The notes under the pieces were generated by a model. The model saw only the letters and a program-made list of their open reading frames with translations, was not told the DNA's origin and did not search any database. A stretch of 64,000 bases of DNA from Salinispira pacifica (GTDB taxonomy: Bacteria; Spirochaetota; Spirochaetia; DSM-27196; Salinispiraceae), in NCBI RefSeq assembly GCF_000507245.1, contig NC_023035.1, forward strand, positions 2,833,570 to 2,897,569, given 5' to 3'. This document shows positions 15,526 to 58,554 of this stretch, piece after piece; the first letter of the stretch is position 1, and every line of letters begins with the position of its first letter. A program made the position numbers and the translations under genes.

Positions 15526-16709
15526 TGGACACCTCCAGAAATAGCAAAGCTGAAATAGCTTCTTCTTGTATGTAAAAGCTGGCGGAGTTTTTTTAGAGTT
15601 ACTTGTTCAATTCCTTCTATTGATTTGAGCAAATCAATAGATTTTTTCTGAGCATTGGCTGATGGCAAAACAAAAGGTGTGCTTCTCAACAGTTCTAAAT
15701 TGATGCCTTTTACGGTAGTCCCTTTACCAACAGAGTCGAAGTAACTTTCTTTTGAAACTAACCAATAAAGTAGATATTCAGAAAGTAATACATCTTTCGG
15801 GAAAAGTGCTTTTAAATCCTGGTTTATTGTAATTGGCTTATCAAATATTGCAGCTTTTCCAACACCTATTCTTGTGGCCACAATAGGTGTTGCTTCAGGT
15901 ATTAAATTTGTGGCGCTGTTGTTTAAACCTTCTTCGGTGATCGACTCTAGTGAAGCGCTTAGTCGAACTCCTTTTAAATCTTTAACTGTTACCCAAGGTA
16001 TTTTGCCATTCCAATATTTAGTAACAGTTCTACGTGGTGTACCACCGCCAACAATTTTTTCAAGGACATCGCCTAAAGAACATTCTATAACCGTTTCGTC
16101 TTGATAAATTGAAATAGGGTCGTTTAATAGCTTATTGCTGATTATTTCTTTAAACAGATTGATTCGTTCAACCAATCTGATGTTTTTACCGTAATTATCC
16201 TCAACCTTCTCCAGCACTTCGAGGATCTCTTTCTGGCGCTCAATCGGCGGCAGAGGGAATTCAAATTCAGCCAGTGACTTCCATTTGGTTCTTGGGGATA
16301 GAGACCCGGAGGAAGTTTTCTCTGCCCAGTCAAAAAAGGCATCCGATTGAATGATAAAAGGCAGCAGCTCGGGAATGATTTTCTTCGGAATCGCATCCAT
16401 CACAATGATGTCGCACGAACAGATACCTTCAAAGTCTGCAACAGCAGCTTTCTTCTGATAGCAACGACGTTTGCCAAAGAGGATCTGCCCGGCAGAAAAG
16501 CGTCGGGTAAAGCTGGGATTGTCTTCTGCAATGATTCCTTTCCGAGCAATGCGCAGCGACTGCGGGTCTAAATGCTCAAGGCCGACATAAAACTCCAAAC
16601 CGTCCTCGGCAGGGTCTTTGGTTGTCGACTTCACTTCTTTGGCAATCTCCCCGAACTTAACGATTTGCCATCCGACCTTTATCTGCTTTTCTGAAAGTTC
16701 TATTGCCAT
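15522..16709 (-). CDS. hsdS: Type I restriction enzyme specificity subunit HsdS
   Basis: This 395-residue protein contains two target-recognition domains separated by a helical conserved region. The first half ends in LAEFEFPLPPIERQKEILEVLEKVEDNY. The second TRD starts at CSLGDVLEKIVGGGTPRRTVTKYWNGKIPWVTVKDLKG and ends in STPFVLPSANAQKKSIDLLKSIE. HsdS sets the DNA sequence recognised by the methylase and the nuclease. The gene lies 2 bases after the second hsdM and overlaps hsdR by 4 bases. The target sequence cannot be read from the protein. The second TRD region is noticeably more AT-rich than the rest of the operon, a common sign of TRD exchange. Confidence 0.93.
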   Translation of the reverse strand: MAIELSEKQIKVGWQIVKFGEIAKEVKSTTKDPAEDGLEFYVGLEHLDPQSLRIARKGIIAEDNPSFTRRFSAGQILFGKRRCYQKKAAVADFEGICSCDIIVMDAIPKKIIPELLPFIIQSDAFFDWAEKTSSGSLSPRTKWKSLAEFEFPLPPIERQKEILEVLEKVEDNYGKNIRLVERINLFKEIISNKLLNDPISIYQDETVIECSLGDVLEKIVGGGTPRRTVTKYWNGKIPWVTVKDLKGVRLSASLESITEEGLNNSATNLIPEATPIVATRIGVGKAAIFDKPITINQDLKALFPKDVLLSEYLLYWLVSKESYFDSVGKGTTVKGINLELLRSTPFVLPSANAQKKSIDLLKSIEGIEQVTLKKLRQLLHTRRSYFSFAISGGVQ

Positions 16710-16711
16710 TG

Positions 16712-18190
16712 TTACACCTCAATTCCTAAGTCAGCCAATGCTGCAAAAAGATTCTTAGACTGCTTTTTGAGTTCAACGCGGCCGACCTGCCAAGCCTCGA
16801 TGGTTGATTCCAAACTCTGACCGTCACCATTTGTACCATTGTGAACATACAGAGGAATCGAGAGGTTGTGCATGTTCTCTCTGATCTCTTCAATATCCGC
16901 TAAGCGGGCGACCTCTTCATGGTTTTCCGGCTCAAAATAGGCCGCCACCAGTCGCTCAAGGTTTTTGTCACTCAAGAAGCTGAACGCTCTTTCCCGGGTC
17001 ACTTCCTTAACACCGTTTATGAACAGCACTTTGTTCTTTCTCTCTTTGGGTTTGTTCATGCGCAGGATGACCACGCATGATTCCATGGGAGAGTTGTAAA
17101 ACAGGTTAGGCCCCAGACCGATAACAGCCTCAATCATGTCGGCTTCGATTACTTTTTTGCGGATATCCTGTTCGGAATCTCTGAACAGAACGCCGTGTGG
17201 CCAAAGCATGGCGGCCCTGCCGGTTTTAGGATTCAGGCTTTTGATGATGTGCTGAAAAAACGCATAGTCAGCGCAGCCTTGAGGAGGCACACCGAATTCA
17301 TTTCGTTTGAAAGGATCTGCACCAAATTTGCTTCTGTTCCACTTCTTGATCGAGTACGGCGGATTGGCAAAGATGACATCAAACTGCTTGAGGCGATCAT
17401 ATTCGAGAAACTTTGGCTCCGCGAGTGTATCGCCACGTTGAATATCAAACTCCTCAATATCATGAAGGAACATATTCATTCTGGCGATGGCGCTGGTCAG
17501 CAGGTTTACTTCTTGCCCGAACAGTTTGACCGTGCGCCATTCCTTACCATCGGTGCGCAAATCCATCACCGCATTAAGAAGCATGCCACCGGTTCCACAT
17601 GTCGGGTCATATGCGCTTTCGCCGGGTTTCAGCTCCATTACTCGAGTCATGAGATGGACCACTGTTCTGTTGGTGTAAAATTCAGCGGCTGTATGGCCGG
17701 AATCATCTGCAAATTTTTTGATGAGGTATTCGTAAGCTGCTCCAAGGTCGTCCTGGGTTACTGCGCTGATACCCAGCGGAATCTTGCTGAAATGTTCCAC
17801 CAATGACGCCAGCAGGTGATCCGGAAGCCGTTCTTTATTGGTCCATTGCGCATCACCGAATACGCCGTATAGACGCTGGTTGCTTTTCTCAATGGTCCGC
17901 AGTGCCTTTTGTATGAAAGCACCGATATTGGTCGAGGTCTCACGAAGTGTATCCCAACGGGCGGATTCTGGAATTATGAACCGATGCTGCTCAGGTAGTG
18001 CGGCAAACTCTTCATCCCCATCCGAAAAGGCCAGAGCTTCTTCATACTCGTCCTTATAAACGTCAGACAGTCTTTTATAGAAAAGCAGCGGGAAGATATA
18101 CTGTTTGTAGTCGGAAGCGTCGATTTGTCCCCGCAGGAATTCTGCGGCTCCCCAGAGCATGCTTTCCAGTTGTTGTTGCGAAAGACTCAT
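16712..18190 (-). CDS. hsdM: Type I N6-adenine methyltransferase HsdM (second copy)
   Basis: This 492-residue protein has the N-terminal HsdM helical domain (IDASDYKQYIFPLLFYKRLSDVY). The N6_Mtase core has the SAM motif YDPTCGTGGMLL (about residues 195-206) and the catalytic motif NPPY in FDVIFANPPYSIKKW. It is alignable along its whole length with the other hsdM just upstream, but clearly divergent, so it is an old paralogue and not a recent duplicate. Its start overlaps the stop of the first hsdM by ATGA. Both catalytic motifs are intact, so it should methylate adenine in the HsdS target. Having two M genes with a single S gene is unusual. Confidence 0.93.
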   Translation of the reverse strand: MSLSQQQLESMLWGAAEFLRGQIDASDYKQYIFPLLFYKRLSDVYKDEYEEALAFSDGDEEFAALPEQHRFIIPESARWDTLRETSTNIGAFIQKALRTIEKSNQRLYGVFGDAQWTNKERLPDHLLASLVEHFSKIPLGISAVTQDDLGAAYEYLIKKFADDSGHTAAEFYTNRTVVHLMTRVMELKPGESAYDPTCGTGGMLLNAVMDLRTDGKEWRTVKLFGQEVNLLTSAIARMNMFLHDIEEFDIQRGDTLAEPKFLEYDRLKQFDVIFANPPYSIKKWNRSKFGADPFKRNEFGVPPQGCADYAFFQHIIKSLNPKTGRAAMLWPHGVLFRDSEQDIRKKVIEADMIEAVIGLGPNLFYNSPMESCVVILRMNKPKERKNKVLFINGVKEVTRERAFSFLSDKNLERLVAAYFEPENHEEVARLADIEEIRENMHNLSIPLYVHNGTNGDGQSLESTIEAWQVGRVELKKQSKNLFAALADLGIEV

Positions 18191-19680
18191 AGTTCAAAAC
18201 CCTCCCGTTCAAGTAGCAGTTCCAGTTCATTTTCCGCAGTCTCAAGTTCTGCCAGCTTGGCTTTGAAATCACGGAGGGCTTCTTCTACGGTAATTTTTTC
18301 TTCTTCGAGCGGTTTTTGGACGTATCTTGCAATGTTCAGGTTGAAGTCATTTTCTTTGAGCTCGGCATACTCGACCCATCGGGTAACGCCTTCTTCCTCA
18401 AAAGAGCTCTGCTTTTGTTTCTTGTAGAGCTGGTAAATCTCGTCGGCCTGTCCGGTAGTCATGGTGTTTTGAGCTCGGCCTTTGGTGTAGATTTCCTCCG
18501 CATTGATAAACAACACCGGAGATTTTGCTTTGACTGATTTTCTTAAAACAAGGATGGAGGCAGGGATTCCTGTTCCATAGAACAAATTGCCTGCTAATCC
18601 TATCACCGCTTCAATAGTACCCAAGTCCAAGAGTTTCTTCCGGATCTTCGCCTCTGCACCGGACCTGAACAAAACCCCATGAGGCAGAACAACAGCCATC
18701 CGGCCACTGCCTTCCTTCATGGATGTGTACATGTGCATGACCCATGCAAAGTCACCGTTGGTCTTTGGGGCCAGTCCAAACGTATGCCTGTTAAAAGGAT
18801 CGGAAGACCACTTCTCATGGCCCCACTCTTTTAAGCTGAAGGGTGGATTTGCGATTACGCAATCAAACTGTTCAAGGCGGTCGTAAGTGAGAAACTTCGG
18901 ATCTCTCAGGGTATCTCCGCGTCGTATTTCAAAATCTTCCATCCCGTGGAGATAGAGGTTCATCCGGGCGATCGCTTCAGTCGTCAGATTCTTTTCCTGC
19001 CCTTTGAGCTTCAGCAAACGTGGGTCGCCACCATGCTCACGAACATGATGAACGGTCTCCAAAAGCATACCGCCGGTACCGCATGCAGGGTCGTAGACTG
19101 TTTCGCCGGGCTGAGGGCCCAGCACATTGACCATCAAGCGGACGATTGATCGCGGCGTATAAAACTCTCCGGCCTTCTTGTTGGCCTTGTCGGCAAATCG
19201 CTTGATCAGATATTCATAGGCTCTACCCATGTCGTCATCACGAACATGACCAACACCAAGCCTGATTTTGTTAAAGTGATTCAGGAGCTGGAGGAGAAGA
19301 TGGTCTGGTAGGCGTTCTTTGTTGGTCCATGGCGCATCTCCAAAAATTCCATAGAGACGGTCATTTGTCTTTTCGATTCCAAGAAAAGCAGCTTTCAGCG
19401 CTTTACCTACATCCTTTGTTGCAGCGATGACATCATTCCAATGGCACCCCTCTGGCACCTCAATACGGTGCTGTTCTGGCGCTTTTGCCATTTCTTCGTC
19501 GCCATAGAACTCCATGGCTTCTTCAAATTCTTCATTGTAAACATCACAAACCCGCTTAAAGAAGAGTATGGGAAAGATGTAAGTCTTATAGTCCGACGCA
19601 TCGATCGGGCCGGTTATGATATGGGCAGCTTCCCATAAATGACGCTCAATGTCTTGTAGCTTGATTGTTGATTGCGACAT
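18187..19680 (-). CDS. hsdM: Type I N6-adenine methyltransferase HsdM (first copy)
   Basis: This 497-residue protein is the first gene of the operon. The N-terminal domain reads GPIDASDYKTYIFPILFFKRVCDVY, the SAM-binding motif is YDPACGTGGMLL (about residues 200-211) and the catalytic motif is NPPF in FDCVIANPPFSLKEW. The C-terminus has a long coiled-coil-like tail (LRDFKAKLAELETAENELELLLERE), suited to contact HsdS or the partner subunit. It overlaps the second hsdM by 4 bases. Possible explanations for two copies are a heterodimeric M1M2S methylase, or one copy that was once served by a different, lost S subunit. The operon promoter must lie in 19681-19775, before the IS4 element. Confidence 0.93.
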   Translation of the reverse strand: MSQSTIKLQDIERHLWEAAHIITGPIDASDYKTYIFPILFFKRVCDVYNEEFEEAMEFYGDEEMAKAPEQHRIEVPEGCHWNDVIAATKDVGKALKAAFLGIEKTNDRLYGIFGDAPWTNKERLPDHLLLQLLNHFNKIRLGVGHVRDDDMGRAYEYLIKRFADKANKKAGEFYTPRSIVRLMVNVLGPQPGETVYDPACGTGGMLLETVHHVREHGGDPRLLKLKGQEKNLTTEAIARMNLYLHGMEDFEIRRGDTLRDPKFLTYDRLEQFDCVIANPPFSLKEWGHEKWSSDPFNRHTFGLAPKTNGDFAWVMHMYTSMKEGSGRMAVVLPHGVLFRSGAEAKIRKKLLDLGTIEAVIGLAGNLFYGTGIPASILVLRKSVKAKSPVLFINAEEIYTKGRAQNTMTTGQADEIYQLYKKQKQSSFEEEGVTRWVEYAELKENDFNLNIARYVQKPLEEEKITVEEALRDFKAKLAELETAENELELLLEREGFEL

Positions 19681-32066: not shown

Positions 32067-33668
32067 TCAAATAATAGTGCTGGCTGCGATATGAATTCGC
32101 TCGGGCCATTGCTTAAGCCATAAAGCTTGTTGTAAGGAAGGCATGTTTAAACGTGGATGTTTAACCCGAATGTACATATTGGGAGAAATGTTATTGAGAT
32201 AATCCGTGGGCCAATTCAATGATTGTTTCACAAGCTCACACTCTATTCTGAATTGCTCTTTCTCCCATAGAGAATCAAGCGTCGAGTTGTTTCGCTTGAG
32301 CAACAATGTCGACAATTTACCCGGACAATCGAAAGTATCAACCTCAAGAAGAATAATAGAATTACCCAGGAGCTTAATATGATGACTCAGAATCAATCGA
32401 TCCGATCCATCATCTAGGCAATACTTTGAATACCTACTTAATGCTGGCAGGGGGTGAGCACCAGAAGATATATGCTGCACATCTGCTCGTTGACATAATT
32501 TATTTATCATCATATTAAACTGAGTAAAGCTGGTGACATGATTATAATCAACATCATTTGCAAGAATTTCGATACCGGCAAATTCCGCAGGTTTAGCAGC
32601 ACCAAACACACTTGACTCATTTGTAGATACTTCAACGATGGATGATTCAGTAAAATCTTCATCAGTTTCTATTCCAGTTCCGGCAGTGCGTTTTTTGCCT
32701 CTTCCAGATCTCCTGATGGCAATCGGATGACGGAATTGGAATTTCACTTGGGGAGCTTCGATCTCTTGAAGGCCTTGATCTGGATTCGGGGTTTGATCAT
32801 TATCTATCTCAATCTCCGCACCGGGAGCAGAACCTTTTGAGTCTGCACCTCGACCTCCAGAAAAACTCATAGACAGTTTTGGATCTATAAATTCTACTTC
32901 TGCTGGAGAATCACTTTTAAGATTTGAAATTGAGTGGATTTCCCAACCGAAAAATACCTTCAGATCCTTATCTAATCTCCCATGGACTATTAGTTTCACG
33001 TCCTTTAGTGAGGGGGGATCAAATCGAAAATTCCACTTTCGGTAATTTTTCGAGACAGTGCTATTTTCTACTATATTTGTGAAAATGCTTTCATATGATC
33101 TGCGTGCGTCCTTATCAAATAGAAGCCAGGAAAGATGCTGCAAACTCGGATTATGCCGCCGAATATTACTCGGCAAATTAGAATTTGGTAGAATATTTAT
33201 ATAACTTTGGGAAGATGATTCTTCGACGGAAATATCAAATTCTTCTGCCAAACCATTCTGTTTCATGGATAGACTCGAAAGGTATGCGCTGTTAAAGAAT
33301 AGAGCTCGAGCTAATTCAAATTGAGGTAAGTAGCATTTTATATCTCCATAATCGAAAACAAAACAAAGTTGTTCTCCATCTCCATCCGAAGAAATACCAG
33401 GGAGCTCAAAATCACTTATGCTACAAGATTTCCATTCCCGAGCATCCGTAATGAAAATGTTTTTTTTATATCCTGCAGTTTTAGAAGCGTGACTTGGATT
33501 TAGAATCCTCCGACGCGCAAGCAAATGAATTTCTGAAAGATATGCGTAGCCTCTACTCTTTGAATCTCTAAGATTGATATTCAATTTCCAGTCCGAATCT
33601 CGATGTGATCTAAAAAAAGACCCGATCCCATAGACTGTGGAGTCTTTAGCTATGCCTTTTAATTTCAT
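32067..33668 (-). CDS. tnsE: TnsE, target selector for replicating / mobile DNA
   Basis: The 533-residue protein closely follows Tn7 TnsE (538 residues): GIGSFFRSHRDSDWKLNI at the start, CYLPQFELARALFFNSAYL, NILPNSNLPSNIRRH, SYESIFTNIV, KWNFRFDPPSLKDVKLIVHGR, and the C-terminal HIKLLGNSIILLEVDTFDCPGKLSTLLLK and VKQSLNWPTDYLN. In Tn7, TnsE directs insertion into conjugating plasmids and lagging-strand DNA through the sliding clamp. The start lies 23 bases inside tnsD. It is the last gene of the tns operon, facing the cargo. A true TnsE separates this element from the many Tn7-like elements that lack it. Confidence 0.93.
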   Translation of the reverse strand: MKLKGIAKDSTVYGIGSFFRSHRDSDWKLNINLRDSKSRGYAYLSEIHLLARRRILNPSHASKTAGYKKNIFITDAREWKSCSISDFELPGISSDGDGEQLCFVFDYGDIKCYLPQFELARALFFNSAYLSSLSMKQNGLAEEFDISVEESSSQSYINILPNSNLPSNIRRHNPSLQHLSWLLFDKDARRSYESIFTNIVENSTVSKNYRKWNFRFDPPSLKDVKLIVHGRLDKDLKVFFGWEIHSISNLKSDSPAEVEFIDPKLSMSFSGGRGADSKGSAPGAEIEIDNDQTPNPDQGLQEIEAPQVKFQFRHPIAIRRSGRGKKRTAGTGIETDEDFTESSIVEVSTNESSVFGAAKPAEFAGIEILANDVDYNHVTSFTQFNMMINKLCQRADVQHISSGAHPLPALSRYSKYCLDDGSDRLILSHHIKLLGNSIILLEVDTFDCPGKLSTLLLKRNNSTLDSLWEKEQFRIECELVKQSLNWPTDYLNNISPNMYIRVKHPRLNMPSLQQALWLKQWPERIHIAASTII

Positions 33669-35184
33669 AATCCTCTAGAAGTAGCCGATCTAAGTATAAT
33701 CTTGCCATATCAGTCAATCGTTCATCACTCAACCCAGCCTTTCGCATTAAACGCCATCTGGGTGGCTTAGTATACTCACTGAGTAAAGAATCATAAGCAT
33801 TTTCTATTCGACGAATCTGGTATGCACTTACATCTTCTGCATGGTTTTCTATAAAATTCCTGACCAGCGGTAACCGATTCAAATTCTTCTCAAGGGTTGA
33901 GGGTGAATCCGACTGTTTCAATAAAAAGCGCTTTGAGCGCCTGGGCGAAAATCTATTTTCGGATACAAACTTATATGCATCCATTAATTCTATATAATAT
34001 TTTTGATCCCGCGCAGGCCAGTCAACTCTTGACCTATTTCCGCTGCTTCGATCGAACCGCTTGTCCGAATTAACAGTTATCAACCATTTATGATCAGCTC
34101 TATACAATCTGGCATATAGTGCTTTATCGTACATCCTAGCCTGCTTTGGAGAAAGATTCTCGAGAAGTGATAGCCACGTAGTCTGATCTGTTGAAAGAGT
34201 ATGGATTAATGAATCTGTTTCGCATGTTGTCCGCTGATAGCTGATCACCGGAATTCGTTGGACACGATGAAGAACTTCCTTAATATTCCAATCCTCTCCT
34301 AATAACGCCTGGTGAACCACAATATGCTGTAGAAAACTGAAACTCTTCCTATGCTTTCGGAAAATCGCCCGCATCCACGACGTATCACTATTATCAAAGT
34401 CGTCAATCAATAAATTATTGTCCTGCAAAAAGCTACGAGACCAGCATTCGTTGATTTTCCCATAGATTCCCTCATGATCAATTTGTCTTGAACCTCGTCT
34501 ATAACCTAAGGAATAAGCCAGAGTATGATAGTACTCGGTCCACTGAGAGAATGATGGGGAGGATAGTTCCGGCAGACCCAACAATATTCTTACCTGTTCA
34601 TTAACAGCAAGTAAAAGAGGATCTATTTTTTTTTGATAAAATGATGGACACAAAGCAGGCGAAGCAGCTATAAAACGATGCCGAGCCGCTTGGGGTCGGG
34701 AAATTTGAGTGTTGATTAACTGCCCATGTTTGGTACAAAAATTTATGCCAGGTACCTGCCATTCCCTAATCCAATAATATTCTCCGTGGATATTAAATTG
34801 TTCCCTCATACAAGCCGGACAATATCTCACGTACTTTGACGTCTTGACGACAGAAGCCGCTACACCCAATGCAAGATGTGCAGATCCATAACTCGATTTC
34901 TTCATCCAGTTTAAACATCTCCGTCTATTCTCCTCCGGGACAAACGGTGCATATAACGGAAATAATGTATTTTCATAGATCAATCGCTCTACGGTATAGG
35001 ACTCCGTCAGCCAGTTTGCTACTTGATCCAAATGGGATGGTAAATCTATAGTAGCAATTACCATTCTGCTGCCAAACACCTCATCGAGTAGTTGCTTAGG
35101 ACTCTGAATCCCCTGCCTGACTCCAGCTCGGGCAATCACACTGTACAGCAGTTCATCACGATAGGGCAGAGGAAAATTAAGCAT
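33646..35184 (-). CDS. tnsD: TnsD (TniQ family), attTn7 target selector
   Basis: This 512-residue protein aligns along its length with Tn7 TnsD (508 residues): NFPLPYRDELLYSVIARAGV and SPKQLLDEVFGSR at the N-terminus, and YENTLFPLYAPFVPEE. The TniQ zinc-binding cysteines are in YCPACMREQ and FCTKHGQ. The C-terminal DNA-binding part has VDWPARDQKYYIELMDAYKF and SAYQIRRIENAYDSLLSE. TnsD binds the end of glmS and recruits TnsC. Its target sequence is present at the right boundary of this element. It starts 5 bases after tnsC ends. Confidence 0.95.
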   Translation of the reverse strand: MLNFPLPYRDELLYSVIARAGVRQGIQSPKQLLDEVFGSRMVIATIDLPSHLDQVANWLTESYTVERLIYENTLFPLYAPFVPEENRRRCLNWMKKSSYGSAHLALGVAASVVKTSKYVRYCPACMREQFNIHGEYYWIREWQVPGINFCTKHGQLINTQISRPQAARHRFIAASPALCPSFYQKKIDPLLLAVNEQVRILLGLPELSSPSFSQWTEYYHTLAYSLGYRRGSRQIDHEGIYGKINECWSRSFLQDNNLLIDDFDNSDTSWMRAIFRKHRKSFSFLQHIVVHQALLGEDWNIKEVLHRVQRIPVISYQRTTCETDSLIHTLSTDQTTWLSLLENLSPKQARMYDKALYARLYRADHKWLITVNSDKRFDRSSGNRSRVDWPARDQKYYIELMDAYKFVSENRFSPRRSKRFLLKQSDSPSTLEKNLNRLPLVRNFIENHAEDVSAYQIRRIENAYDSLLSEYTKPPRWRLMRKAGLSDERLTDMARLYLDRLLLEDYEIKRHS

Positions 35185-35189
35185 TATTT

Positions 35190-36848
35190 TTACCCATACG
35201 TATCAATCCATGCATCAGTATCAAACATTACACCTGAGCTTTTGAGTATTTCTACAAACTCATCTGTATTATCAGCTTGACTGGAAACGAAACGCAAATC
35301 ATCAGTTTCCAATGTATGCCAGTCTTTTGGGTGAATAATCTTGTAGGTGGAACCCGATTTTTTTTCTGGTTTTGTTTGCTCAGCACTCTTATACCATTCG
35401 ATAACTATCGGCATTATGTCTTTGAGCTCAACAGATGGATTATCCCTGAAAGCTTTAGATACAAGAGGCTCGAGCAGTGTAGATTCAAAACCCATATCTA
35501 CTAATTGTCGATATAATCGTATAGCACTACTGTTGTTTTCAAATTTAGGTTCTGAATTTACTTTTGCCACCTGCTTTTGAACTAATATAGACAATTCGAT
35601 AATTTTTTTATCGATATGTGGAATTGTCAGATCCGAGTATTTAGCTATTCTTTCTTTCAAACCAGAGCGCAGCGCGTCTATCATTGGATGGATAGGCTTC
35701 AACTCATCCTCATAGACTTTTCGCATCAGCTTTGGAGTAATTCGCTCTATACCTGAAACAACCGCGCGCATTTGTGATAAAACGTATAGCTTAATTACTA
35801 CGTCCATTATGCCCTGTGAAAGATCAAACCAAGTTTCACTTATTTCTGTTGATAGCACCGGGTCAGCTTTTGTAAGCCACTGCAATTTCCACAGTCGGTT
35901 TGTAAATCTACCCCACTCAGTCTTATCTATTTTTACTTCAAAATCCGGTCTTGCTAATGGCTCCCATAATAAAGCACCAAAACCCGACGCTCGACGGGCA
36001 GATCGCAAATCTAACTCAAAAATCGGTTGAGCCTTTGGTGTACCGACCATTAATACGGGTATGGATATTGTATTCACCAAAGTAACAAAGAAATTCAACA
36101 TTTTTTCTGCACCACCCGAGCGTTTGGTACTGAGATGTTGAATTTCATCTATTACAAGCAAACCAATGGCATATGTGTTCGCTATTTGAGCCATCAAGGC
36201 AATCAATGTTTCTACGCCATGCCGCTTTCTTACATAACGATCTACGTAATTTTCATGAAGTACCTCATCGAGCGCTCTGAAAAAATTATGACAAAGACTT
36301 TTCAGAGAGCCATCATAAGGACAATCGATCTTGAGAAATACTATCTGAGTAAAATTATATTTTTGATGATAAATTACCTGCGGATATGTCGCCAAAATTC
36401 TGTTGATGCTGGCAGTCTTCCCTGAGCCGGAACAACCAATGAAAGTCATACTTTTTGCGGTGGATTCAACATGCTCAAATCTTTGAACTTCCAGATCACC
36501 TTTCATCAATCGCTCATAGCCATTCTGAATGTGGACATTATGTCCTCCATCAATCAGATTTCGGCCTATATATCCTTGTCGAATCATCAACGAAATTTTC
36601 ATTTCCAGTTCAATATGTCGTGTGAGAGGTTGAAAGAAATGATCAATCAACTGAGCGATTGCATGAATTCTTTTATTACCATCCAAATAAATTTCAGAAG
36701 CCCGAAAATTTATTTGATTTTTGAGAGTAGCACTTACTTGAGTAGCATTTTTAATCGGTGGCAGGCATTCTATAAAAGGATTATTTCTGTATTGATCTAT
36801 AATAGACTCAACATATTCTGCCTGAATCCAACCATCATATAAGTTCAT
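35190..36848 (-). CDS. tnsC: TnsC AAA+ ATPase, transposition regulator
   Basis: This 552-residue protein is close to Tn7 TnsC (555 residues). Walker A is FIGCSGSGKTASINRILATYPQ (about residues 142-163) and Walker B is IGLLVIDEIQHLSTKRSGG (about 223-241). The DLRSARRASGFGALLW segment, DELKPIHPMIDALRSGLKERIAKYSD and the end VIHPKDW...DDLRF are also shared. TnsC forms ATP-dependent filaments that link the target selector (TnsD or TnsE) to TnsA and TnsB. The start overlaps the tnsB stop by ATGA. Confidence 0.95.
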   Translation of the reverse strand: MNLYDGWIQAEYVESIIDQYRNNPFIECLPPIKNATQVSATLKNQINFRASEIYLDGNKRIHAIAQLIDHFFQPLTRHIELEMKISLMIRQGYIGRNLIDGGHNVHIQNGYERLMKGDLEVQRFEHVESTAKSMTFIGCSGSGKTASINRILATYPQVIYHQKYNFTQIVFLKIDCPYDGSLKSLCHNFFRALDEVLHENYVDRYVRKRHGVETLIALMAQIANTYAIGLLVIDEIQHLSTKRSGGAEKMLNFFVTLVNTISIPVLMVGTPKAQPIFELDLRSARRASGFGALLWEPLARPDFEVKIDKTEWGRFTNRLWKLQWLTKADPVLSTEISETWFDLSQGIMDVVIKLYVLSQMRAVVSGIERITPKLMRKVYEDELKPIHPMIDALRSGLKERIAKYSDLTIPHIDKKIIELSILVQKQVAKVNSEPKFENNSSAIRLYRQLVDMGFESTLLEPLVSKAFRDNPSVELKDIMPIVIEWYKSAEQTKPEKKSGSTYKIIHPKDWHTLETDDLRFVSSQADNTDEFVEILKSSGVMFDTDAWIDTYG

Positions 36849-38651
36849 TCATCATCCTCAAATAAGATATCACTTAAATCGGGATAAGATGCATCATCAT
36901 CCTCTACATTCTCAGATTCATCTCGGGGAAACTGAATGATTTCCGTCTGATTGTCATCCGTTGCCTTTTTAGTTGAGTTCTCTTTCCGGGCAGTTCTTTC
37001 TCTATTTAGCTCAATTTCTCGTGCATTCTGTATTCCGGAAATTCGTTCCCGTTTACTCAAATCTATATTGCTGGGGCGCTGCTCCACAGCACCCTTTATA
37101 GTTTCCTGTATGAGTTTTTCCAATTCTCGTTTTTTCTGCCTTGCGGGAACCTTTGCTTTCGCATTAGTGTTTCTGACTTCTCTTATTCGGGCCTTCATTT
37201 CCCACAATGTAATACCCCTAAATTCTCTAGAACGATCTGTGAGGAAGCACTCCCAATAATTATTTTTCCCCGGTTCCGGAAAGAAAAATATCCTATCCAC
37301 GGATACTGGATCATAGGCAGCCATGAAAGAACTTGACAGCTTGCGTTCCGTCCTAAGAAGCCAACCAGACTTAACTAGCTCAGCTGATGAATAATAAGCG
37401 CCGAAAAACCGAATTCCATAATCTGAGATAGTAACTACTTTACGAGGCAGTAAAGCAATCCGAACACTATCTTCATTTACTGCACGTAAGCGTCCGCTTT
37501 TATGTTGGATTCCCCAATTCCAAATATTAATAGGGACTGATGGCATATCAGTAGGCATTTGGTATTCCCTGTCATAGTTTTCGAGCACAGAATAGCGGTT
37601 TCTATAAATTATGGAACTTACTATAATGGTCGTAAATTCACTCAATGTAAGCGCTGACTCAAGTCGATAGTCTTCACCGCCTTCCTTTTTTATTTTTGTT
37701 TTCTCCACAGCCCCTGGAGCAATCTTTTTGAAGTCAGCTTGGAGAGTTCGAAAATTCCGCTCTACTACACCTTTTGCATCTCCACGAAATGAAGGTGTGG
37801 TATCAAAGCGCACATTGAAAGCATTCTCCAAGAATTCTGCTTGATGGGACATCAGTTCACCTTTATCGGCAAGAATAGCATCTGGCAAGCCTATAGCTGG
37901 CCAATCCTCACTTGAATAGGCAATGGGTAAGAGCTTGAAAAGCTTTTCCTTATCGATTATCGCTAATTCTAATGCCAGCATCGCAGTTATATAAGAAGGA
38001 TTTTCCAAACCAATGTAAAAACCGACTATAAGTCGACTATATGCATCAACGACTACATAGATTGTTGGACGCCCGATAATTTCCCGTCGATCTGAAGATA
38101 CTAAATAAATATCTGCAATTGTTGCGTCTATCTCATATATCGCGCCAGGTCCATGGAGATTCGCTGCTACGGTACTGTGTAGTTGCCGGATATCTTTACG
38201 GAATTTTATTTTCCCAGCTCTTTTACGGATTGATTCCTCATTCGCGTATTCTCGCTCATAAAAATACCGAAGCTGGGCTAAGGTAGGATAATCTTCCTTT
38301 TTGATATGTCGATGTGAAGTCTCATACATATCCTCAAATCGACGATGGGCGAATGCAAGGGAATGTTTCTTTTCTGAAAGATAATGCTGATCCAGTACAG
38401 CACGAAACATCCTTTCGATCTCTACATCTATGATGACACCATCACCCGGTGTCGTAGTTCGGGGTCTACCTAATTTTGTAGCCCCTGCAGTTCGTTTTTT
38501 TCCTGGTCCACCAGATTTATCATAATCAGGCAATAGTGCATTAGGCGTACATCCTCTCTGCCAATATTTTCTTAATAGACTGTAAATCGTTTTAATAGCA
38601 ACATCGTTTCTTTCTGCGATTTTACGAACCAAAGGTCCTCGTAATCTTTTA
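36845..38651 (-). pseudogene. tnsB: tnsB, 3' part (transposase catalytic region), separated by IS insertion
   Basis: This segment encodes the last 600 or so residues of TnsB. It has HTH-type DNA-binding regions (VAIKTIYSLLRKYWQRG) and the DDE catalytic core: first Asp in YEIDATIADIY, second Asp in AILADKGEL, Glu in GDAKGVVERNFRTL. A C-terminal tail is likely to contact TnsC. The open frame continues to 38728, but the residues beyond 38651 come from the inserted IS. Joining this part to the 5' part at 41898-42192 through one copy of the TTTTA duplication restores one frame (PEIYIK then RLRGPLVRK), giving about 698 residues against 702 in Tn7. The gene is thus a clean knock-out of an otherwise intact transposase. 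Confidence 0.92.
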
Positions 38652-38744
38652 CCTGAATCCGTATAAAAGAAACGGCAACCCAAACCCAACTCAATGAGGT
38701 ATAATGGTTTACGCGAATAGACCAGCACACCCAGGAGGTGAAGT

Positions 38745-49814: not shown

Positions 49815-52388
49815 TTACCGGCCGGGTCCCTCCTGGGACTCTGCCGGGCCCTCTTCCCTTGTGGCCTTTTTTAACTTGGCATCTTCTCTGTTGGCATCTT
49901 CTGGTTCAACCGGCTCATCCCCGGACCGGCGGGTCTTGAATCCGTCAACCTGACTGCGGATCTTCTGCAGCTGGCTGCGGTTTTCCTGCCCCAGCTGGGC
50001 CAGCTCGTTGGTGGAGTCCCGGATTTCCTTGATGCCTGCATCGATTTCGCTGATGCTTCCCGACACCGAGGTGGAAACCTCAAGAACATTGCTTACATTC
50101 CGGTGTATTCCTTCCGCACCATTGTTCAGGCGGCTGCTTTCATCTTCAACCCGGGTGGAAACCTGGGTAAGCGAACTGATGGTGTCCAGGATCTGGGTAC
50201 TGCCCTGGTTCAGCTCTTCCATGCTGGCTCCGATTTCCGCAAACACCGAGGTGAACTGTTCAACCTCCCGCTGGATGCCGGTAAAACTCTCGCCGGTCTC
50301 CCGTGAAGATTCCATGGCACGGTGGATCAGATCCACGGAGCTGTGAATGCTCTCGCTGATCACCACGGAATTTTCCCGGGTGGTTTCCGAAAGCTTCCGG
50401 ATTTCGTCGGCGACTACGCTGAATCCTCTCCCTGCATCCCCGGCGTGGGCGGCTTCGATGGCGGCATTCATGGCCAGAAGGTTGGTCTGTTCCGATATGG
50501 ACTGGATTATCTCTGTGGCCTCGGTAATCTTGTCCGCTGCCTGCTGTACCTCGGTAATGAGATCCACCGTGGATTCAAGTTTTTCGCCCCCGGCCCTGGT
50601 GATATTCAGAAGTTCGTCGCTTCGCTCCCGGCGCTCCCGGATGCTGTTGCTCACCGACTGGATGGAGGCCACCATCTCTTCGGTTGCCGAAGAAGATGAG
50701 TCAACCGCCGCCTTTTGGGTATTCACCGCTTCACTGAGGGTTGACGCTATGCCTCTGATATCTTCCACAGCCTGAAAGCTTGACTGTACGTGTTGATCCA
50801 GACCGGCAACCTGTTCGGATATTGAATTCAGGTTCCGGGATATCTGATACACCGCAGCAGAGCTTTCCTCGGAGCTGGCCAGAAGAGTGTCGGAAAGGTT
50901 ATCCGCCTGAACCACCGTGGATTGAATATTGCTGACAATCTCATGGAGTTTCTCCACAAAAATGTTGAAATAGCTGCTCATCCGACCAAGCTCATCTTTT
51001 CTGGTGATATCCAGGCGAACCGTGAGATCCCCCCTTCCCTGGGAAATTTCCCTGAGTATTTCAACGGTGTTCTTCAACGGCCGCGAGATGCTCCGGCTTA
51101 CTGCAGCAAACAGCAGAATGAGCAGCAGAAGCACTGCTGCGGCAATTACGGCAACCAGCCTGATCATATCGAACACCGCCGCCAGAGCTTCCCGGGCATC
51201 CTGTTCGGCTATGACCACCCATTGCACTCCCGGAATTTCCAGGGGAGCATAGGCTCCCAGGGTCATGGTTTCCCGGAAACTTTCGCTGAGCAGCACCCCT
51301 TTTTCTCCTTGAAGCGCACGGTCCACCGCATCGGTCCGCATGGGCAGATGAAGAATGGTGGTTTCAAAACTTGCAATTTCCGTGGCCAGGGGAGCCCTGT
51401 CCAATTCGGTATTCAGCATTTCATAGAATTCAGCAGGGCGCTCAAGAAACATGCGGTACTCGGTGCGGAGCATGCGGTCTGTTCCCGCAATATAGGTTTC
51501 TCCGGTGGCTCCCAGCCCTTCCTCCTCCCAGGATTGATTCCGGGTCATTACGGCTTCAATCTCCTCCACGGGCATTTGAAATATCAGGATCCCTGTGAGC
51601 TCTTCTCCCTGGTATATTCCGGTGGATATGAATGATGCGGGAGCGGCGTTTGACGGCAGATACGGACGGTAGTCGATGAGATAGCTTACCCCCTTCTCCC
51701 CGCTTAACGCAGACTGGAAGGCCTTGCCGATGCCGCTTGAAGTATAGGGACCGTTTTTCAGGTCGGTGGCGAAATCCGCTTCCTTTTTCACCGAATAGAC
51801 GATGGTACCGTACTCCGGTTCAACCAGGAAAATATCGTAAAACCCGAACTTCTCAAGATACGAGCGAAATACCGAATGGTAGCGGGAATGAATTTCATCA
51901 TAGCCGTCGATGCCCGGATTAATCAGATCATCCTTCCTGCCGACGGGGTTGGGGTTATTTACCAGATACCGTTCCTGGAGAATAAATGATGCAACATTCC
52001 TGGGAAGCAGGCGGCTGGTGTCGCTGGGGCGGACAGTTTCGGGAATGCGCATGAGCAGCTCGGTGCGAAGATACTCGGCTACTTTCCGGCGCATCTCAAG
52101 CAGCCGGTCCGAGGGGCTGTCCCTGAGCTCTGCATATTCCCTTCTGAAATCCTCAATTGCCTGTATCACCATGAGATTTACGGCCTGCGCCTCTACCTGA
52201 CGGGAGATCTGTTCAAAATAGTTCTCCACCTGGGTGGCTTTGATATCCCGTATTGCAGAAAGTTTTTCGAAAACCAGATCTCTCTGTGACTGCTGGGCAA
52301 TAAAAATAATCCCCGACGCTATGAGCGCCAGGGATACAAAAGTGATAATCAAAATGCCTGTAAGCCGTTGTCGTATCGTGAGGTTCAT
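49815..52388 (-). CDS. Methyl-accepting chemotaxis protein
   Basis: This 857-residue receptor has TM1 at about residues 11-31 and a large periplasmic sensor (about 35-405). The sensor has a dCache/double PAS-like pattern, including [22 protein letters not shown] before TM2 (about 406-429). HAMP ([19 protein letters not shown]...GELGRM type) follows. The long signalling coiled coil has its hairpin tip at [38 protein letters not shown] (about 629-666). It should report ligand binding to CheA through CheW. The ligand is unknown. The C-terminal tail is unusually charged ([20 protein letters not shown]) and has no CheR-docking pentapeptide that I can recognise. It lies 32 bases beyond the RND gene on the same strand. 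Confidence 0.95.
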
Positions 52389-52419: not shown

Positions 52420-55400
52420 TCAAGCACCGTGAAGAGAAATTTCCGCATAGAATATGCTCAACTCCCTCAGCACGGTAAAAAGCGTGAACCCCGATTGGTG
52501 AAGATTCCGGATTATCCTGCGCATGGCCAAATCGCTGCTTCCGCCCTGGCGGTGCAGGATGAGCTCCTGTTCATAGGCATCCAGCTGCAGGACAAAACTG
52601 TCTGAGGCATTTTCTGCGGAAGATATAAGCTGTCCGTACTGCTCCTGGAGCCGCTGAAGTTCCAGCTCAATTTCCTGTTCAGCCCGGCTGATCTGTACAC
52701 TGTTTCTCCTCAGACGCTGTTCATGGAGGCGCTTTTGAAGCCGGAAGCTCCTGCGGAAGGGGTCGGAAATATCAACGGCTGCTGTGAGGGTAAATATTTC
52801 TTCCCCGGGGTTTTCCAGCAGTCCCGGATTATCTGCTCCTCCCTCTGTCGGCTCAAATGGTGCCTGATAGTTCATATTTATACTCAATCTGGGCGCATCC
52901 GCCTGCCCTGCATCCATCAGCGCCGCCCGGGCATTTTCCATGTCGTAGCGGGCCTGCAAAATGTCGGGATCACCCTCGGTCATGCGTCGGCGGAGATCAG
53001 CCCAATCGGGAACCTTGGAAAGACGTGCCGGAGAAGGAAGCAGCCGGTCTGAGAGGAGAGCGGCAACGCGCCGGTCATCCCTGCCCAGGTCCGCAGATAT
53101 GCTGCGCTGAATCTCTCTGATACTGTTTTCCAGCTCTCTGAACCGGGTTTTTTGCACTTCCAATGCATCAGCTGCGGCATCCAGCTGATTTTGAGACGCA
53201 AGCCCCAGTTCCGCATCTTCTGTGATCTGCTGAAGTTCTATCTCCTGAATACTGATGCTCTCTTCCAGCAGATGAAGCTCCTGTATGAGATCCAGCCGCC
53301 GGCTCAGACGCCGGAGCATCCCCAGGCTCTGCTGATTAAGCCCTTCATCGTAGTTCAGCTGTGCCAGGGTAACCCCGTTTTCCGCCGCCTTCATTCCTGC
53401 ATCAAGGACATTGAAGCGCAGGAAGCTGCCGTCAAGAAAGAGGGGCTGGGAGAGTCCCGCCGACACTGAAGGGGAAAGAGCAAACGACCATTCATCTTCA
53501 GGGGATATCCGGTTTTGTGACAGTCCTGCGGATGCGGTTGCGAAGAGCTGGCCTCCGGTGGGCAGGGCCTGGTCTGCGGAAAGGCTCATTGACCAGTCAA
53601 TGGACTCATCGTCCCCGGGATCGTTTCCCGGAACCGGCTGTGCACTGAAATCCGGGCCCCTGGTATAGCTGAACATGCTGCCTCCCCCGGAGGGAGAACC
53701 CGCCCCGCCGATGCTCAGGCCGGGCAGTATGCTGCTTCGCTGAAACCGGTATTGGGCCTGTGCAGATTCCAGGGCTGAGTCCAGAAGCTGTATTCCGGCG
53801 CTCTGCACCATGCCCTGCCGTATTTCCGGCAGCAGCCTGCTGACCACGCTCTGCCGGGGCAAATTATCACCTGTAAGGCGGAATACCGCTTCTTCAGCGC
53901 TGCGGGAAAGCAGCTCAGGATCCGTTTCGGACAGCTGTTCCGGGGCATCGGGCAGACGGGGATATTCGGGAAGCAGAATGCTGAATCCGTCCTCTTCAGC
54001 TGTTGCCGGAGCTGTGTCCGCTGCTTCATTCTGCTGGGCGTGAAGGATTCCGTTACCTCCGGATAAACCCGGAAACAGGAACAGGAGAGCAAAAAGCCCC
54101 AGGGTCAATACACCCCTGGCACCCTTAAGATTTCCGCCGCCGGATTCTTCCGCCCGCTGTTCAGGGCTCTCTGCGTTACGCCGGTCGTAGAGAAGACCGT
54201 ACAAGCCGGGAATAATAAAGAGGGCGGTAATGGTGGAGAAGAGCAGGCCGAAAATAATAGTGCTCGCCATTGGTCCCCAGACCACCGAACTTCCGCCGAT
54301 CCCCAGCGCAGTGGGAAGCAGTCCTGCAATGGTTGTGAGAGATGTGAGCATAATGGGGCGCAAACGGGTTCCCGCTGCTTCCCGTACCGCATCCCCCACC
54401 GAAGCTCCTTTATCCCGCAGCTCGTTAATAAAACTGATGAGAACAATCGCATCGTTCACTGCGATTCCCGCCAACGCAACCCCTGCATAGAGCACAGTGG
54501 TGGAGAATGCGGTTCCGCTGAGTGCAAGGTAGAGTACCACTCCCACAAACGAAAAGGGTACCGAAATCAGAATAATCAGGGGCTGGGAGTAGCTCTTGAA
54601 TTGAGCTCCCAGGATGAGATATATCAGAAAAATCCCTAACAGAAAAACTCTGAGAATCTGAATAATCAGATCCTGAAACTCGGAGAACTCACCGCCGGTT
54701 CCGAACTCCACATCCGGATAGCTAGAGGCCAGCTCAGCCGCAAAAAAGGCTTCCACATCCTGATTTACTACAGCCAGATCCAGATTTTCCACGGCATCGG
54801 CGGTTACGGTGATCTGACGCTTCCCCTCCACCCTTCGGATGCTTCCCGCCGAACTGGGAAAATCAACAGATGCCACCGAGGAAAAGGGAATGAGCCGACC
54901 GGACTGGGTGGGGATCGACGACTGAACCAGATCATCATACCGTGCCGTTCCCGGAGTGGCATAGCGAAGAACAATTTCAATTTCCTCATTATCCTCGAAA
55001 TACCGTCCCAGCACCAGTCCGTCGAATTTGGCACGGATGAAGTTGCCCACCTGGGACACCGAAAGCCCCAGTGCTGTGGCCCGCTCCTCATTCACCTGTA
55101 TCCGGATTTCCGGATTTCCCGGCTGATAATTGTCCTCCACATTGAATACTCCATCGGCTCCCCGGAGATATTCCTGGAGATCCTCCGACGATGCGATAAT
55201 CTGTGGGTAATTATCGCCGCTTAAGGTAAAGGAGAGAGGTGAAGATGTTGGAGGCCCGTTTACCGCTTTACGGTACACCATCTCCTCCGGTCCTGCCAGG
55301 CTGCTCAAATCACTCTGAACATCCCGGATAATCGCATCGATGCTCCGGCTGCGTCCCTGTTCAACATCGGTGAGATCGACGGTTATTTGTCCCACATTGG

Positions 55401-57330
55401 ATGACGAATCGACCGAGGTGCTTGATGCCAGGCTTCCGGCGGTTGAAAGCACCGAGAGCACCTCTCCATCCCCCACCCGGTCCATCAGGCGGTTTTCTAT
55501 CCGGCCGAGCATGGCGTCGGTTTGGTCCAGGGGAGTTCCCCTGGGCATGGTGATATCTATGGTGAAATAGCTGAAGTCCTCGGCAGCAAACAGGTCCTGA
55601 TTGAGTAAGGGAATGAGGGCAAAACTTCCTCCGGCAACCACCAGTGCGCCGGCCAGCAGGAGTCCCCGCCTGGGATACACCCGGGCGAAGAGGCGGTCAA
55701 ACCGGGTGCGGATTACTTTGAACCAGGCTCCATGTTCACGCCGGGGACGATTCTTCCGCTCCCTGCCCCAATCGGCGAAATGGGAGGGAAGAATGTACAA
55801 CGCCTCCCAGGTGCTGGCAATCAACGCTATGGCCACCGTAAGAGGGATTACCCTGAGGAAACGCCCGATGGTGCCGGGAATGATCATCAGGGGCAAAAAG
55901 GCAGCAACGGTGGTCGCGGTTGCCGCAATTACCGGCCAGACCACCTGATTGGTTCCGGCTATTGCCGCATCGTGCCGGGAAAGTCCGCTCTGCTGCATAC
56001 GGTATGAGTTTTCGATAATTACAATGGCATGGTCCACGATCAGTCCCAGCACCAGTACAAGCCCAAAGAGGGTATTGGTGTTGATGGTTTCTCCAAGAAG
56101 TTCGAGAACAATAAACGTCAGGGCAAAGGTTACCGGTATGCCCAACGCAGTCATCAGGGCATTCCGCAAACCGATGAACAGGGCCAGAATCACCACCAGG
56201 AGAGCAAGTCCCATGAGGGCGTTCCCCGTGAGTACTGATAGGCTGTCGCGAATCTGTACCGTGGAGTCGTTCAGCAAGGTAACATCCAGCCCCCCGGGCA
56301 AATCCTCCTCTCTTTGGGTCAAATAATCCCGAATGCCCTGTACCACATCCAGGGAGCTGCCGCCGGGAACCTTGGTGACCCGGAGGGCAAGGGAGGTGTC
56401 GCCGTTGATTCTGCTTATCCCCGAGTCGGGATCAAATCCATCGCTCACCCGGGCCACATCCCTCAGTCTGATAATGCCGCTGCCGTCATTTCCGCTTCTG
56501 CGGATTATCACGTCCTGAAAATCATCGATTTCCCGGATGCTTCCCACGGTGCGCAGAATAAACTCCCGGTCTTCGGTGCTGAGAGTCCCGCCGGGAATGC
56601 TGGAATTTCTATCCTGCACCGCCTGAAGTATTTCGCTGCTGCTCAATCCCAGAGATGCCATCCGGGAAGGATCGGCTGTCAGGGTAATTTCCCGGTCCCG
56701 CAGCCCCACAATATCGGCGGATGAAACCTCGCTGATTCCAAGAATATCATCCTGAAAACGGAGAGCCTGCTGCCGCAGTTCCGCATAGGGCAGATCACCG
56801 CTGAGCACCACCTCAATGACCGGAGCAAAATCCGCCGAGGAAAAGTCATCCACCACCGGATTCAGGATTCCATCGGGCAAATCCACCCGGTTAAAACGGG
56901 TCTGGCTGTCCTGGAAAAGGGTCTCAAAACGCTGTTGACTGATGCCGTCGTCGAACTCAACCCTCACCACCGAGAGTCCCTCGCTTGTTGTGGAACTGAT
57001 CGTCTTCAGGTTATCAATTCCCTGAAACTCGTTTTCAACAGGTATGGTGACAATGGTTTCCAGATCCTCTGCGGAAACGCCGGGGTATGGAACAATAATA
57101 TTCACCCAGTAGAAGGGTACCTCGGCAAACTGCTCCTGGGGCAGCTGAAGCATGCTGAATGCCCCCAAGGCAATCACGGTGAACATGAGAATATTCACCA
57201 GAACCGGATTTTTCACGCTCAACGCACCGATTCCCCGTTCCAGCCGTGTGGTGTCAGGTTTTTCAGGGTATGCAGCAGTGCCGGATCCCTCATTGGAACC
57301 GGCTCCGCCATTGGATTCGTGTGTGCTCAT
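52420..57330 (-). CDS. RND efflux pump fused to a TolC-like outer-membrane channel
   Basis: This 1636-residue protein combines two parts of a tripartite efflux system. Residues about 1-1050 are an AcrB-type RND pump: TM1 PVLVNILMFTVIALGAFSML, porter domains (VPFYWVNIIVPYPGVSAEDLE), TM4 LVLVLGLIVDHAIVIIEN and TM10 LAGIAVNDAIVLISFINELRDKG. After a polar linker (RRNAESPEQRAEESGGG) comes a signal-peptide-like segment (about 1073-1098, GVLTLGLFALLFLFPGLSGG ending near LHA-QQ). Residues about 1100-1636 resemble an outer-membrane efflux protein, with long coiled-coil helices (LHLLEESISIQEIELQQITEDAELGLASQNQLDAA and RAEQEIELELQRLQEQYGQL). The frame runs through without a stop and no in-frame ATG or GTG exists at the junction. 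The membrane-fusion partner gene is 81 bases upstream. A lost stop between two ancestral genes is the alternative. Confidence 0.88.
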   Translation of the reverse strand: MSTHESNGGAGSNEGSGTAAYPEKPDTTRLERGIGALSVKNPVLVNILMFTVIALGAFSMLQLPQEQFAEVPFYWVNIIVPYPGVSAEDLETIVTIPVENEFQGIDNLKTISSTTSEGLSVVRVEFDDGISQQRFETLFQDSQTRFNRVDLPDGILNPVVDDFSSADFAPVIEVVLSGDLPYAELRQQALRFQDDILGISEVSSADIVGLRDREITLTADPSRMASLGLSSSEILQAVQDRNSSIPGGTLSTEDREFILRTVGSIREIDDFQDVIIRRSGNDGSGIIRLRDVARVSDGFDPDSGISRINGDTSLALRVTKVPGGSSLDVVQGIRDYLTQREEDLPGGLDVTLLNDSTVQIRDSLSVLTGNALMGLALLVVILALFIGLRNALMTALGIPVTFALTFIVLELLGETINTNTLFGLVLVLGLIVDHAIVIIENSYRMQQSGLSRHDAAIAGTNQVVWPVIAATATTVAAFLPLMIIPGTIGRFLRVIPLTVAIALIASTWEALYILPSHFADWGRERKNRPRREHGAWFKVIRTRFDRLFARVYPRRGLLLAGALVVAGGSFALIPLLNQDLFAAEDFSYFTIDITMPRGTPLDQTDAMLGRIENRLMDRVGDGEVLSVLSTAGSLASSTSVDSSSNVGQITVDLTDVEQGRSRSIDAIIRDVQSDLSSLAGPEEMVYRKAVNGPPTSSPLSFTLSGDNYPQIIASSEDLQEYLRGADGVFNVEDNYQPGNPEIRIQVNEERATALGLSVSQVGNFIRAKFDGLVLGRYFEDNEEIEIVLRYATPGTARYDDLVQSSIPTQSGRLIPFSSVASVDFPSSAGSIRRVEGKRQITVTADAVENLDLAVVNQDVEAFFAAELASSYPDVEFGTGGEFSEFQDLIIQILRVFLLGIFLIYLILGAQFKSYSQPLIILISVPFSFVGVVLYLALSGTAFSTTVLYAGVALAGIAVNDAIVLISFINELRDKGASVGDAVREAAGTRLRPIMLTSLTTIAGLLPTALGIGGSSVVWGPMASTIIFGLLFSTITALFIIPGLYGLLYDRRNAESPEQRAEESGGGNLKGARGVLTLGLFALLFLFPGLSGGNGILHAQQNEAADTAPATAEEDGFSILLPEYPRLPDAPEQLSETDPELLSRSAEEAVFRLTGDNLPRQSVVSRLLPEIRQGMVQSAGIQLLDSALESAQAQYRFQRSSILPGLSIGGAGSPSGGGSMFSYTRGPDFSAQPVPGNDPGDDESIDWSMSLSADQALPTGGQLFATASAGLSQNRISPEDEWSFALSPSVSAGLSQPLFLDGSFLRFNVLDAGMKAAENGVTLAQLNYDEGLNQQSLGMLRRLSRRLDLIQELHLLEESISIQEIELQQITEDAELGLASQNQLDAAADALEVQKTRFRELENSIREIQRSISADLGRDDRRVAALLSDRLLPSPARLSKVPDWADLRRRMTEGDPDILQARYDMENARAALMDAGQADAPRLSINMNYQAPFEPTEGGADNPGLLENPGEEIFTLTAAVDISDPFRRSFRLQKRLHEQRLRRNSVQISRAEQEIELELQRLQEQYGQLISSAENASDSFVLQLDAYEQELILHRQGGSSDLAMRRIIRNLHQSGFTLFTVLRELSIFYAEISLHGA

Positions 57331-57411: not shown

Positions 57412-58554
57412 TCAGTTCATCTGCGCGATTCGGTCTTCGGTTCGCACAGGATCCCCGTCATTGAGATTGCCAAGACCGCTGATGAGAACTCTCTGTCCCG
57501 GAAGTTCTATCTGATTTCCGGCGGAGCGCACCGCCGCCATGGAACCGTATTGATCAAGCACCTCCACCTGCTGCTTCACCGCCGTTCCTTCCCGGAGAAG
57601 AAATATGGAATCCACTTCTTCCCGTATCAGAGCCCCTGTGGGCACAATGGGCTGCAGCCGTTCCACATCGCTTTGAATCTCCACTTCCGCGCTCATCCCC
57701 GCTTTGAGAATCTCAGGCCTGGGATTGTCAAACTCCACAATCACCTTCCAGCTGCCGGTCTGGGGATCGCTGCCTGCGGCAACGGCCTGTACGAATCCTT
57801 CGCCCAGAATTTCCCCCCTGGGGCTGGATATGCGGATTCGGGCCTCCTGACCTTCCTGAATCAGAAAAATCTGATCCTGTCCCAGGGACAACTCCACCCG
57901 CAGCCGTTGCAGGTTCACCACCCTGGCAAGCCGGGTTCCCGCTGAAATTCTGTCTCCGGGTATGAGCCCTTCGGCCTTGTCTGCAACTCTTCCTTCAATA
58001 GGTGAGGAAATTCTGGTATTTTCCAATGCATCCCCGGCCTGCTCAAGTCTGGCTGCCAGCCCGTCCACCCGGGCCTGGGCCTGGTTGTAGGCAGATTGGG
58101 AAATGGAGCCCCGTTCGTACAATGCCCGCTGGGATTCCAGATCGATTAGTGCACTATCGTACTCACGGCTCAGCTGGCGGAAATTCAAATCAGCAATATG
58201 GTCATCCAGCTGGAGGATGACTTCTCCGGTCCGGATCCGTTCCCCCAGTTCAAAATTCACTTCGGTGATAATTCCCGGGTTCACTGCACGAAGGATCACT
58301 TCTTCAAAGCCCCGGATAATTCCGCTGGCAAACACGCTGCTTCTCAGGCGACCCTCCTGAATGGTTGCGGTTTTTACCGCAGGAGGATCTTCGGGTGCAG
58401 ATTGCCGGGAAATGGAATCCCCGGCCTGTGTGCCGGCAGAACCGTCCTGATCCTCTGCCGGAGAGCAGGACAGAATAAGAACCGGGAAAATAAGAAGAGC
58501 CAGTATCTGAAGCAGCCGCACACTACCGTGTATGTTTTGTGTTCTGTGTTTCAT
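57412..58554 (-). CDS. RND efflux membrane-fusion (adaptor) lipoprotein
   Basis: The 380-residue HlyD/AcrA-type protein has a signal ending in the lipobox LILSC (Cys about residue 30). It is followed by the barrel-sandwich half motif VILRAVNPGIITEVNFELGERIRTGEVILQLDD, a short helical hairpin (LNFRQLSREYDSALIDLESQRALYERGSISQSAYNQAQARVDGLAARLEQA), the second half motif ISSPIEGRVADKAEGLIPGDRISAG, and the beta-barrel domain. It bridges the inner-membrane pump and the outer-membrane channel, which here are encoded by one fused downstream gene. The lipid anchor places it at the periplasmic face of the inner membrane. It is the first gene of the efflux operon. Confidence 0.94.
   Translation of the reverse strand: MKHRTQNIHGSVRLLQILALLIFPVLILSCSPAEDQDGSAGTQAGDSISRQSAPEDPPAVKTATIQEGRLRSSVFASGIIRGFEEVILRAVNPGIITEVNFELGERIRTGEVILQLDDHIADLNFRQLSREYDSALIDLESQRALYERGSISQSAYNQAQARVDGLAARLEQAGDALENTRISSPIEGRVADKAEGLIPGDRISAGTRLARVVNLQRLRVELSLGQDQIFLIQEGQEARIRISSPRGEILGEGFVQAVAAGSDPQTGSWKVIVEFDNPRPEILKAGMSAEVEIQSDVERLQPIVPTGALIREEVDSIFLLREGTAVKQQVEVLDQYGSMAAVRSAGNQIELPGQRVLISGLGNLNDGDPVRTEDRIAQMN

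Follow-up and report, generated by a model that had tools for sequence, protein, structure and literature searches.

Within the analysed window, a stretch of 64,000 nucleotides of Salinispira pacifica DNA, a single frame of 1636 codons, which begins with ATG and contains no internal stop (57330-52420, minus strand), encodes two complete domains, an RND permease followed by a TolC-type outer-membrane factor (OMF). The gene of a periplasmic adaptor lies 81 bp upstream; its product scores 163.7 bits against TIGR01730 (cut-off 94.9) and carries a lipoprotein-type N-terminus (LLIFPVLILSC). Together, the adaptor and the fused gene make up a three-part pump encoded by two genes. The features of the locus are as follows:

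52420..57330, minus strand: fused RND-OMF gene, 1636 codons (ORF list, Pfam)
54193..57225, minus strand: RND permease domain, residues 36-1046, 12 TM helices (Pfam, hydropathy)
54117..54192, minus strand: charged cytoplasmic tail and linker after TM12, residues 1047-1072
54058..54114, minus strand: hydrophobic segment 13, residues 1073-1091, putative core of an internal signal peptide (hydropathy)
54034..54045, minus strand: putative signal peptidase I site LHA/QQ, cut 1098/1099 (sequence and comparison with separate OMFs)
52423..54036, minus strand: OMF (TolC-like) part expected after cleavage, 538 aa, first 37 residues disordered
57412..58554, minus strand: periplasmic adaptor (RND_mfp, membrane fusion protein), 380 aa (TIGR01730)

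The gene downstream of the fused one (49815-52388), judged by eye from its translation, appears to encode a chemotaxis receptor. Elsewhere in the window, and likewise by eye, we noted Tn7-type-like transposition genes (TnsB-like integrase, TnsC-like ATPase and TniQ-like) together with a 533-aa protein at 32067-38728, and a type I restriction-modification locus at 12403-19680 with two consecutive HsdM-like genes (16712-18190 and 18187-19680).

The RND half is complete, as Pfam ACR_tran covers residues 36-1046 over essentially its full length (profile positions 3-1019 of 1021; E=5.5e-188, 627 bits). Hydropathy analysis places TM1 near residue 43 and further hydrophobic blocks at 370-575 and 888-1043, which corresponds to the 12 TM helices and two large periplasmic loops of RND permeases, and reveals an extra segment at 1073-1091. 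At the proton-relay position in TM4 (D407/D408 of AcrB) the protein has VDH, with D433 and H434 both invariant among orthologues, so that one Asp is kept. Among the named multidrug RND subfamilies of NCBIfam, the best match was RND_permease_2 at 533 bits, below its cut-off of 1250; since no NCBIfam score exceeded the curated cut-off, the RND half is assigned to no named pump. Its nearest solved relatives are MexK and other ordinary drug pumps, but the RND part is only distantly related to solved pumps (phmmer, best 316 bits). In the C-terminal third, Pfam OEP matches in two stretches above its cut-off (E=8e-17). An AlphaFold model of the 538 C-terminal residues, built with 14 homologues (mean pLDDT 78), shows a TolC protomer with the two repeats of long helices plus two strands that define this fold, and its best PDB matches in Foldseek were TolC, OprM, CmeC and VceC (E down to 1.6e-12). 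The OMF family profile, compared by sequence with PDB chains, matched none of them; the fold comparison alone succeeded. The uninterrupted frame, the ACR_tran and OEP matches and the TolC-type model bear out the original prediction that an RND pump and an outer-membrane channel are encoded here as one 1636-residue protein. The usual format, i.e., a separate OMF with its own N-terminal signal, is absent; the signal-like segment is internal and lacks a convincing start codon.

In principle, such a frame could stem from a mistake in sequencing or assembly, or the gene could be broken, as in neighbouring lineages there are two genes whose ends overlap and which one base could join. However, the genome of S. 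pacifica L21-RPul-D2 (CP006939) is complete, a single chromosome of 3,782,798 bp sequenced by PacBio at 365x (PMC4511686), and this depth makes a slip or base error at the junction unlikely. Moreover, the RND orthologues are fused in five other, independent genomes, as the original prediction had suggested checking, and their junctions have diverged differently: L127/G337 (1594 aa; another genus of Salinispira's family), L120/G385 (1582 aa), L126/G348 (1555 aa) and, at contig ends, L124/G374 (at least 1387 aa) and L125 (at least 1540 aa). Fused OMFs elsewhere are under purifying selection. The earlier claim that two-gene relatives differing by one base would speak against the fusion held in so far as two-gene relatives exist, but others share the fusion, and their junctions are divergent and vary in length without loss of frame. 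Hence, the fusion in S. pacifica is real; the independent genomes have already refuted the reading as an error, short of a shared artefact, and we give it a negligible chance.

Orthologues of the RND part occur throughout the class. In G340, G221, G457, G477, G488 and many others, permease and OMF have a gene each, and the two genes mostly overlap by a few bases; some RND relatives have no adjacent OMF. One candidate two-gene relative, G363 (L085/L128), which belongs to a family with fused members, was rejected, as no OMF adjoins its RND gene and unrelated reverse-strand frames lie next to it. The fused and separate OMFs of the clade are homologous and have in common a YP(D/S) motif just after the signal peptide; therefore, the fusion most likely arose in place by the joining of neighbour genes. 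The RND tree of this clade requires at least three changes of state, likely reflecting repeated fusion, or fusion followed by later splitting. Searching 296 genomes of the phylum with the OMF half alone returned few relatives, because OMFs diverge fast, and a first scan of genome contigs with the single protein as query gave no match.

The junction itself agrees with the linker and signal-peptide-like segment ending in LHA-QQ that had been predicted. TM12 ends near residue 1044 and is followed by the tail, the hydrophobic stretch at 1073-1091 and LHA/QQ at 1098/1099 (window 54037/54036). All fused cases display the same order, i.e., TM12, a short tail, a hydrophobic stretch, mostly an Ala-X-Ala-like site and then the OMF. 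The sites, which were placed by eye, read LHA/QQ, TSA/QT, AEA/AD, LEA/DE, VQA/QT, AYA/QR, LPA/QT, SHA/QT, AHA/QS, SAA/QQ, LAA/QT, ISA/DD and VFA/ES; ISS/RE (L175), IFS/QE and GFT/QQ (G230) are less convincing. Hence both the hydrophobic segment and the small-residue site are kept across homologues, with a few weak sites (G230, L175). Leu at -3, as in LHA, is tolerated by signal peptidase I, though not ideal. In separate orthologous OMFs, an ordinary signal peptide comes first and a YPD/YPS motif next; the fused orthologues have preserved the signal segment, the small-residue site and the YP motif in unchanged order (e.g., AYA/QRYPS in fused L125 and LLPA/QSYPD in separate L089), so that the hydrophobic segment sits where a separate OMF has its signal peptide. 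Between G326 and G308, the signal-like stretch is 43% identical, compared to 82% in the RND part, and the flanking domains are under purifying selection; such fast drift with kept character appears to be the behaviour of a signal peptide and favours cleavage.

We propose, with a probability of roughly 70%, that one precursor is made and that signal peptidase I cuts it into RND and OMF. The first 12 TM helices would enter the membrane like those of any normal RND permease, leaving the C-terminus cytoplasmic; the charged tail would then act as n-region and hydrophobic segment 13 as h-region of an internal signal peptide, and the next 538 residues would go via Sec to the periplasm. A cut after LHA (1098/1099), presumably by signal peptidase I, would free the channel half, which would trimerise in the outer membrane and, by way of the neighbouring lipoprotein adaptor, dock onto the RND trimer, the latter keeping the signal helix. 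With one precursor cut in two, RND and OMF would be made strictly 1:1, a ratio that fits the 3:3 tripartite pump and may be of benefit to it.

The hydrophobic stretch by itself is no proof of cleavage, since the cytoplasmic C-terminus of the RND requires an extra N-in segment whether the chain is cut or uncut. If uncut, segment 13 would serve as a TM anchor, the OMF would reach the outer membrane on the disordered linker, and three chains would tie the membranes covalently. The length of the stretch (about 19-20 residues) would suit an anchor, the first OMF helix is preceded by 37 disordered residues that at full extension would cover about 130 A (our estimate), and in the S. pacifica model 39 residues separate the site from the first predicted helix, a distance at which geometry alone would allow a tether. 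The cleavage-site signal is also weak: our home-made score failed to tell fused junctions apart from true RND TM helices (TM7, 6.4; Salinispira junction, 2.5, with the peak not at LHA), and being too crude to distinguish signal peptides from such helices, it was not used as proof. Against the uncut chain, every group retains a stretch resembling the signal peptide of the OMF itself, in most cases with an Ala-X-Ala-like site, and separate orthologues also possess an N-terminal extension before the helices, which is not clearly an adaptation to tethering. We know of no precedent for outer-membrane assembly of an OMF from a chain anchored in the inner membrane. Moreover, in the L048 group (G308 type) only about 6 residues separate the site at 1040/1041 from the start of OEP at residue 1047. 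The first OMF helix (H1) is part of the equatorial domain, which sits at half height in a periplasmic barrel of 100 A (PMC8277102), so that an uncut L048-group chain could hardly reach the outer membrane. Hence, we consider an uncut chain unlikely.

The OMF might also, or only, be produced by internal initiation at TTG codon 1075 or by termination-reinitiation, the fusion frame being incidental. This reading draws on the presence of that in-frame TTG and on the ancestral arrangement of overlapping start and stop codons. As predicted, no in-frame ATG or GTG lies between TM12 and the hydrophobic segment in S. pacifica, and TTG 1075 is the only start-like codon. However, its upstream anti-Shine-Dalgarno pairing (-5.4 kcal/mol) is at background, being matched by 14% of random in-frame start-like codons of the RND part, and a start there would give a signal peptide without a positively charged n-region. 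The start sites of 11 separate OMFs pair with a mean of -9.3 kcal/mol, whereas the best internal start-like codons at fused junctions average -3.6 kcal/mol (p=5e-5, in a comparison built on related sequences), near the background median of -2.3 kcal/mol. Two fusions, L126/G348 and L175, have no in-frame ATG, GTG or TTG at all ahead of the hydrophobic segment, and none of the remaining junctions has a start-like codon above background except G374 and perhaps G308. In G374 (L124/L060), codon 1039 is an ATG with a strong AGGAGG (-10.3) followed by an intact signal peptide, which is in favour of internal initiation there; it is perhaps a young fusion, or a possible intermediate yielding both the fusion and a separate OMF. 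Nevertheless, the ribosome-binding site of the OMF has been lost in nearly all fusions, and the in-frame changes of linker length are expected only under read-through. We therefore regard internal initiation as improbable. An internal signal with cleavage, tied membranes and a TTG restart were the options named in the original prediction; this proved the right set, and the comparison favours the first over the other two.

Fusions of this kind also occur in other RND subfamilies, within Salinispira's order and more widely in its phylum, Spirochaetota. We found four further groups, namely G307/G305 (1553/1555 aa), G301 (1537 aa), G230 (1583 aa) and the L048 group (G326/G308, 1457/1452 aa), whose RND parts are 26-28% identical to that of S. 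pacifica and all of which keep the hydrophobic segment (e.g., AHA/QS, SAA/QQ, LPA/QT, LAA/QT and VFA/ES). In the joint RND tree at least five changes of the fused state are forced, on well-supported branches, the fused label never formed one clade in 200 bootstrap trees, and the OMF halves cluster with their own RND type. Salinispira's own genome encodes the G305-type orthologue as a separate RND (54% identical). The G308 type (L047, L048, L174-L181) shows long frames in all 10 members detected across the phylum; eight of them, further relatives from the phylum sample, have frames of 1424-1518 codons, and 7 of these 8 were read through in detail. This fusion appears to be old and stable, and the L048 group is the better model for structural and cleavage work. 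The long frame of G296 (L046, C68) contains an internal RND repeat and N runs, is probably a misassembly and was left uncounted. As a separate observation, the RND and OMF genes of Salinispira's other RND pump flank a conserved gene for a lipoprotein-like product of 385 aa, relatives of which occur in G130 and G252 (loci L001, L039, L092 and L099).

Similarly to AcrAB-TolC and MexAB-OprM, the S. pacifica system comprises an ACR_tran permease, an adjoining adaptor gene and a TolC-fold OMF; unlike in those pumps, RND and OMF are one open reading frame. Spirochaete adaptor-RND-OMF operons (L119, L121, L123, L155 and L172) are direct orthologues with the same gene order and the same YPD-motif OMF family, but there pump and channel are encoded apart, by genes whose ends usually overlap. 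In FbcH of Bradyrhizobium, the polyprotein precursor of cytochromes b and c1, one chain likewise comprises a membrane protein and its exported partner, with an internal signal that is cleaved. The putatively cut S. pacifica chain would resemble it, although the exported half of FbcH stays anchored in the inner membrane, whereas here it would go to the outer membrane. In Bacteroidota, CusA/CzcA-type RND proteins about 1450 aa long may end in an OEP domain; these would be alike in domain order but represent another RND class and phylum. When plasmids were searched for fused relatives from other phyla, no match covered 80% of the query; the one Bacteroidota plasmid pump that we inspected consists of three separate genes and is no test of such Bacteroidota fusions. 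A literature search, which covered few subscription papers, found no paper on RND-OMF fusion, nor on a mechanism for the Bacteroidota type. Thus, the components are unremarkable and the logic of the operon is familiar, while none of the papers found describes their in-frame joining with an internal signal peptide retained.

If cut, the protein would be a bacterial two-membrane polyprotein, in which one translation product gives rise to a pump and a channel in equal number and the general signal peptidase alone would suffice for processing. If uncut, it would be a one-chain trans-envelope machine and, to our knowledge, the first covalent bridge of such kind between inner and outer membrane. For annotation, proteins of this type, about 1500 aa long, hide an OMF that operon searches miss. 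Gene overlap, i.e., translational coupling, can proceed to full fusion, and repeatedly so, and the balance between RND and OMF numbers becomes directly testable.
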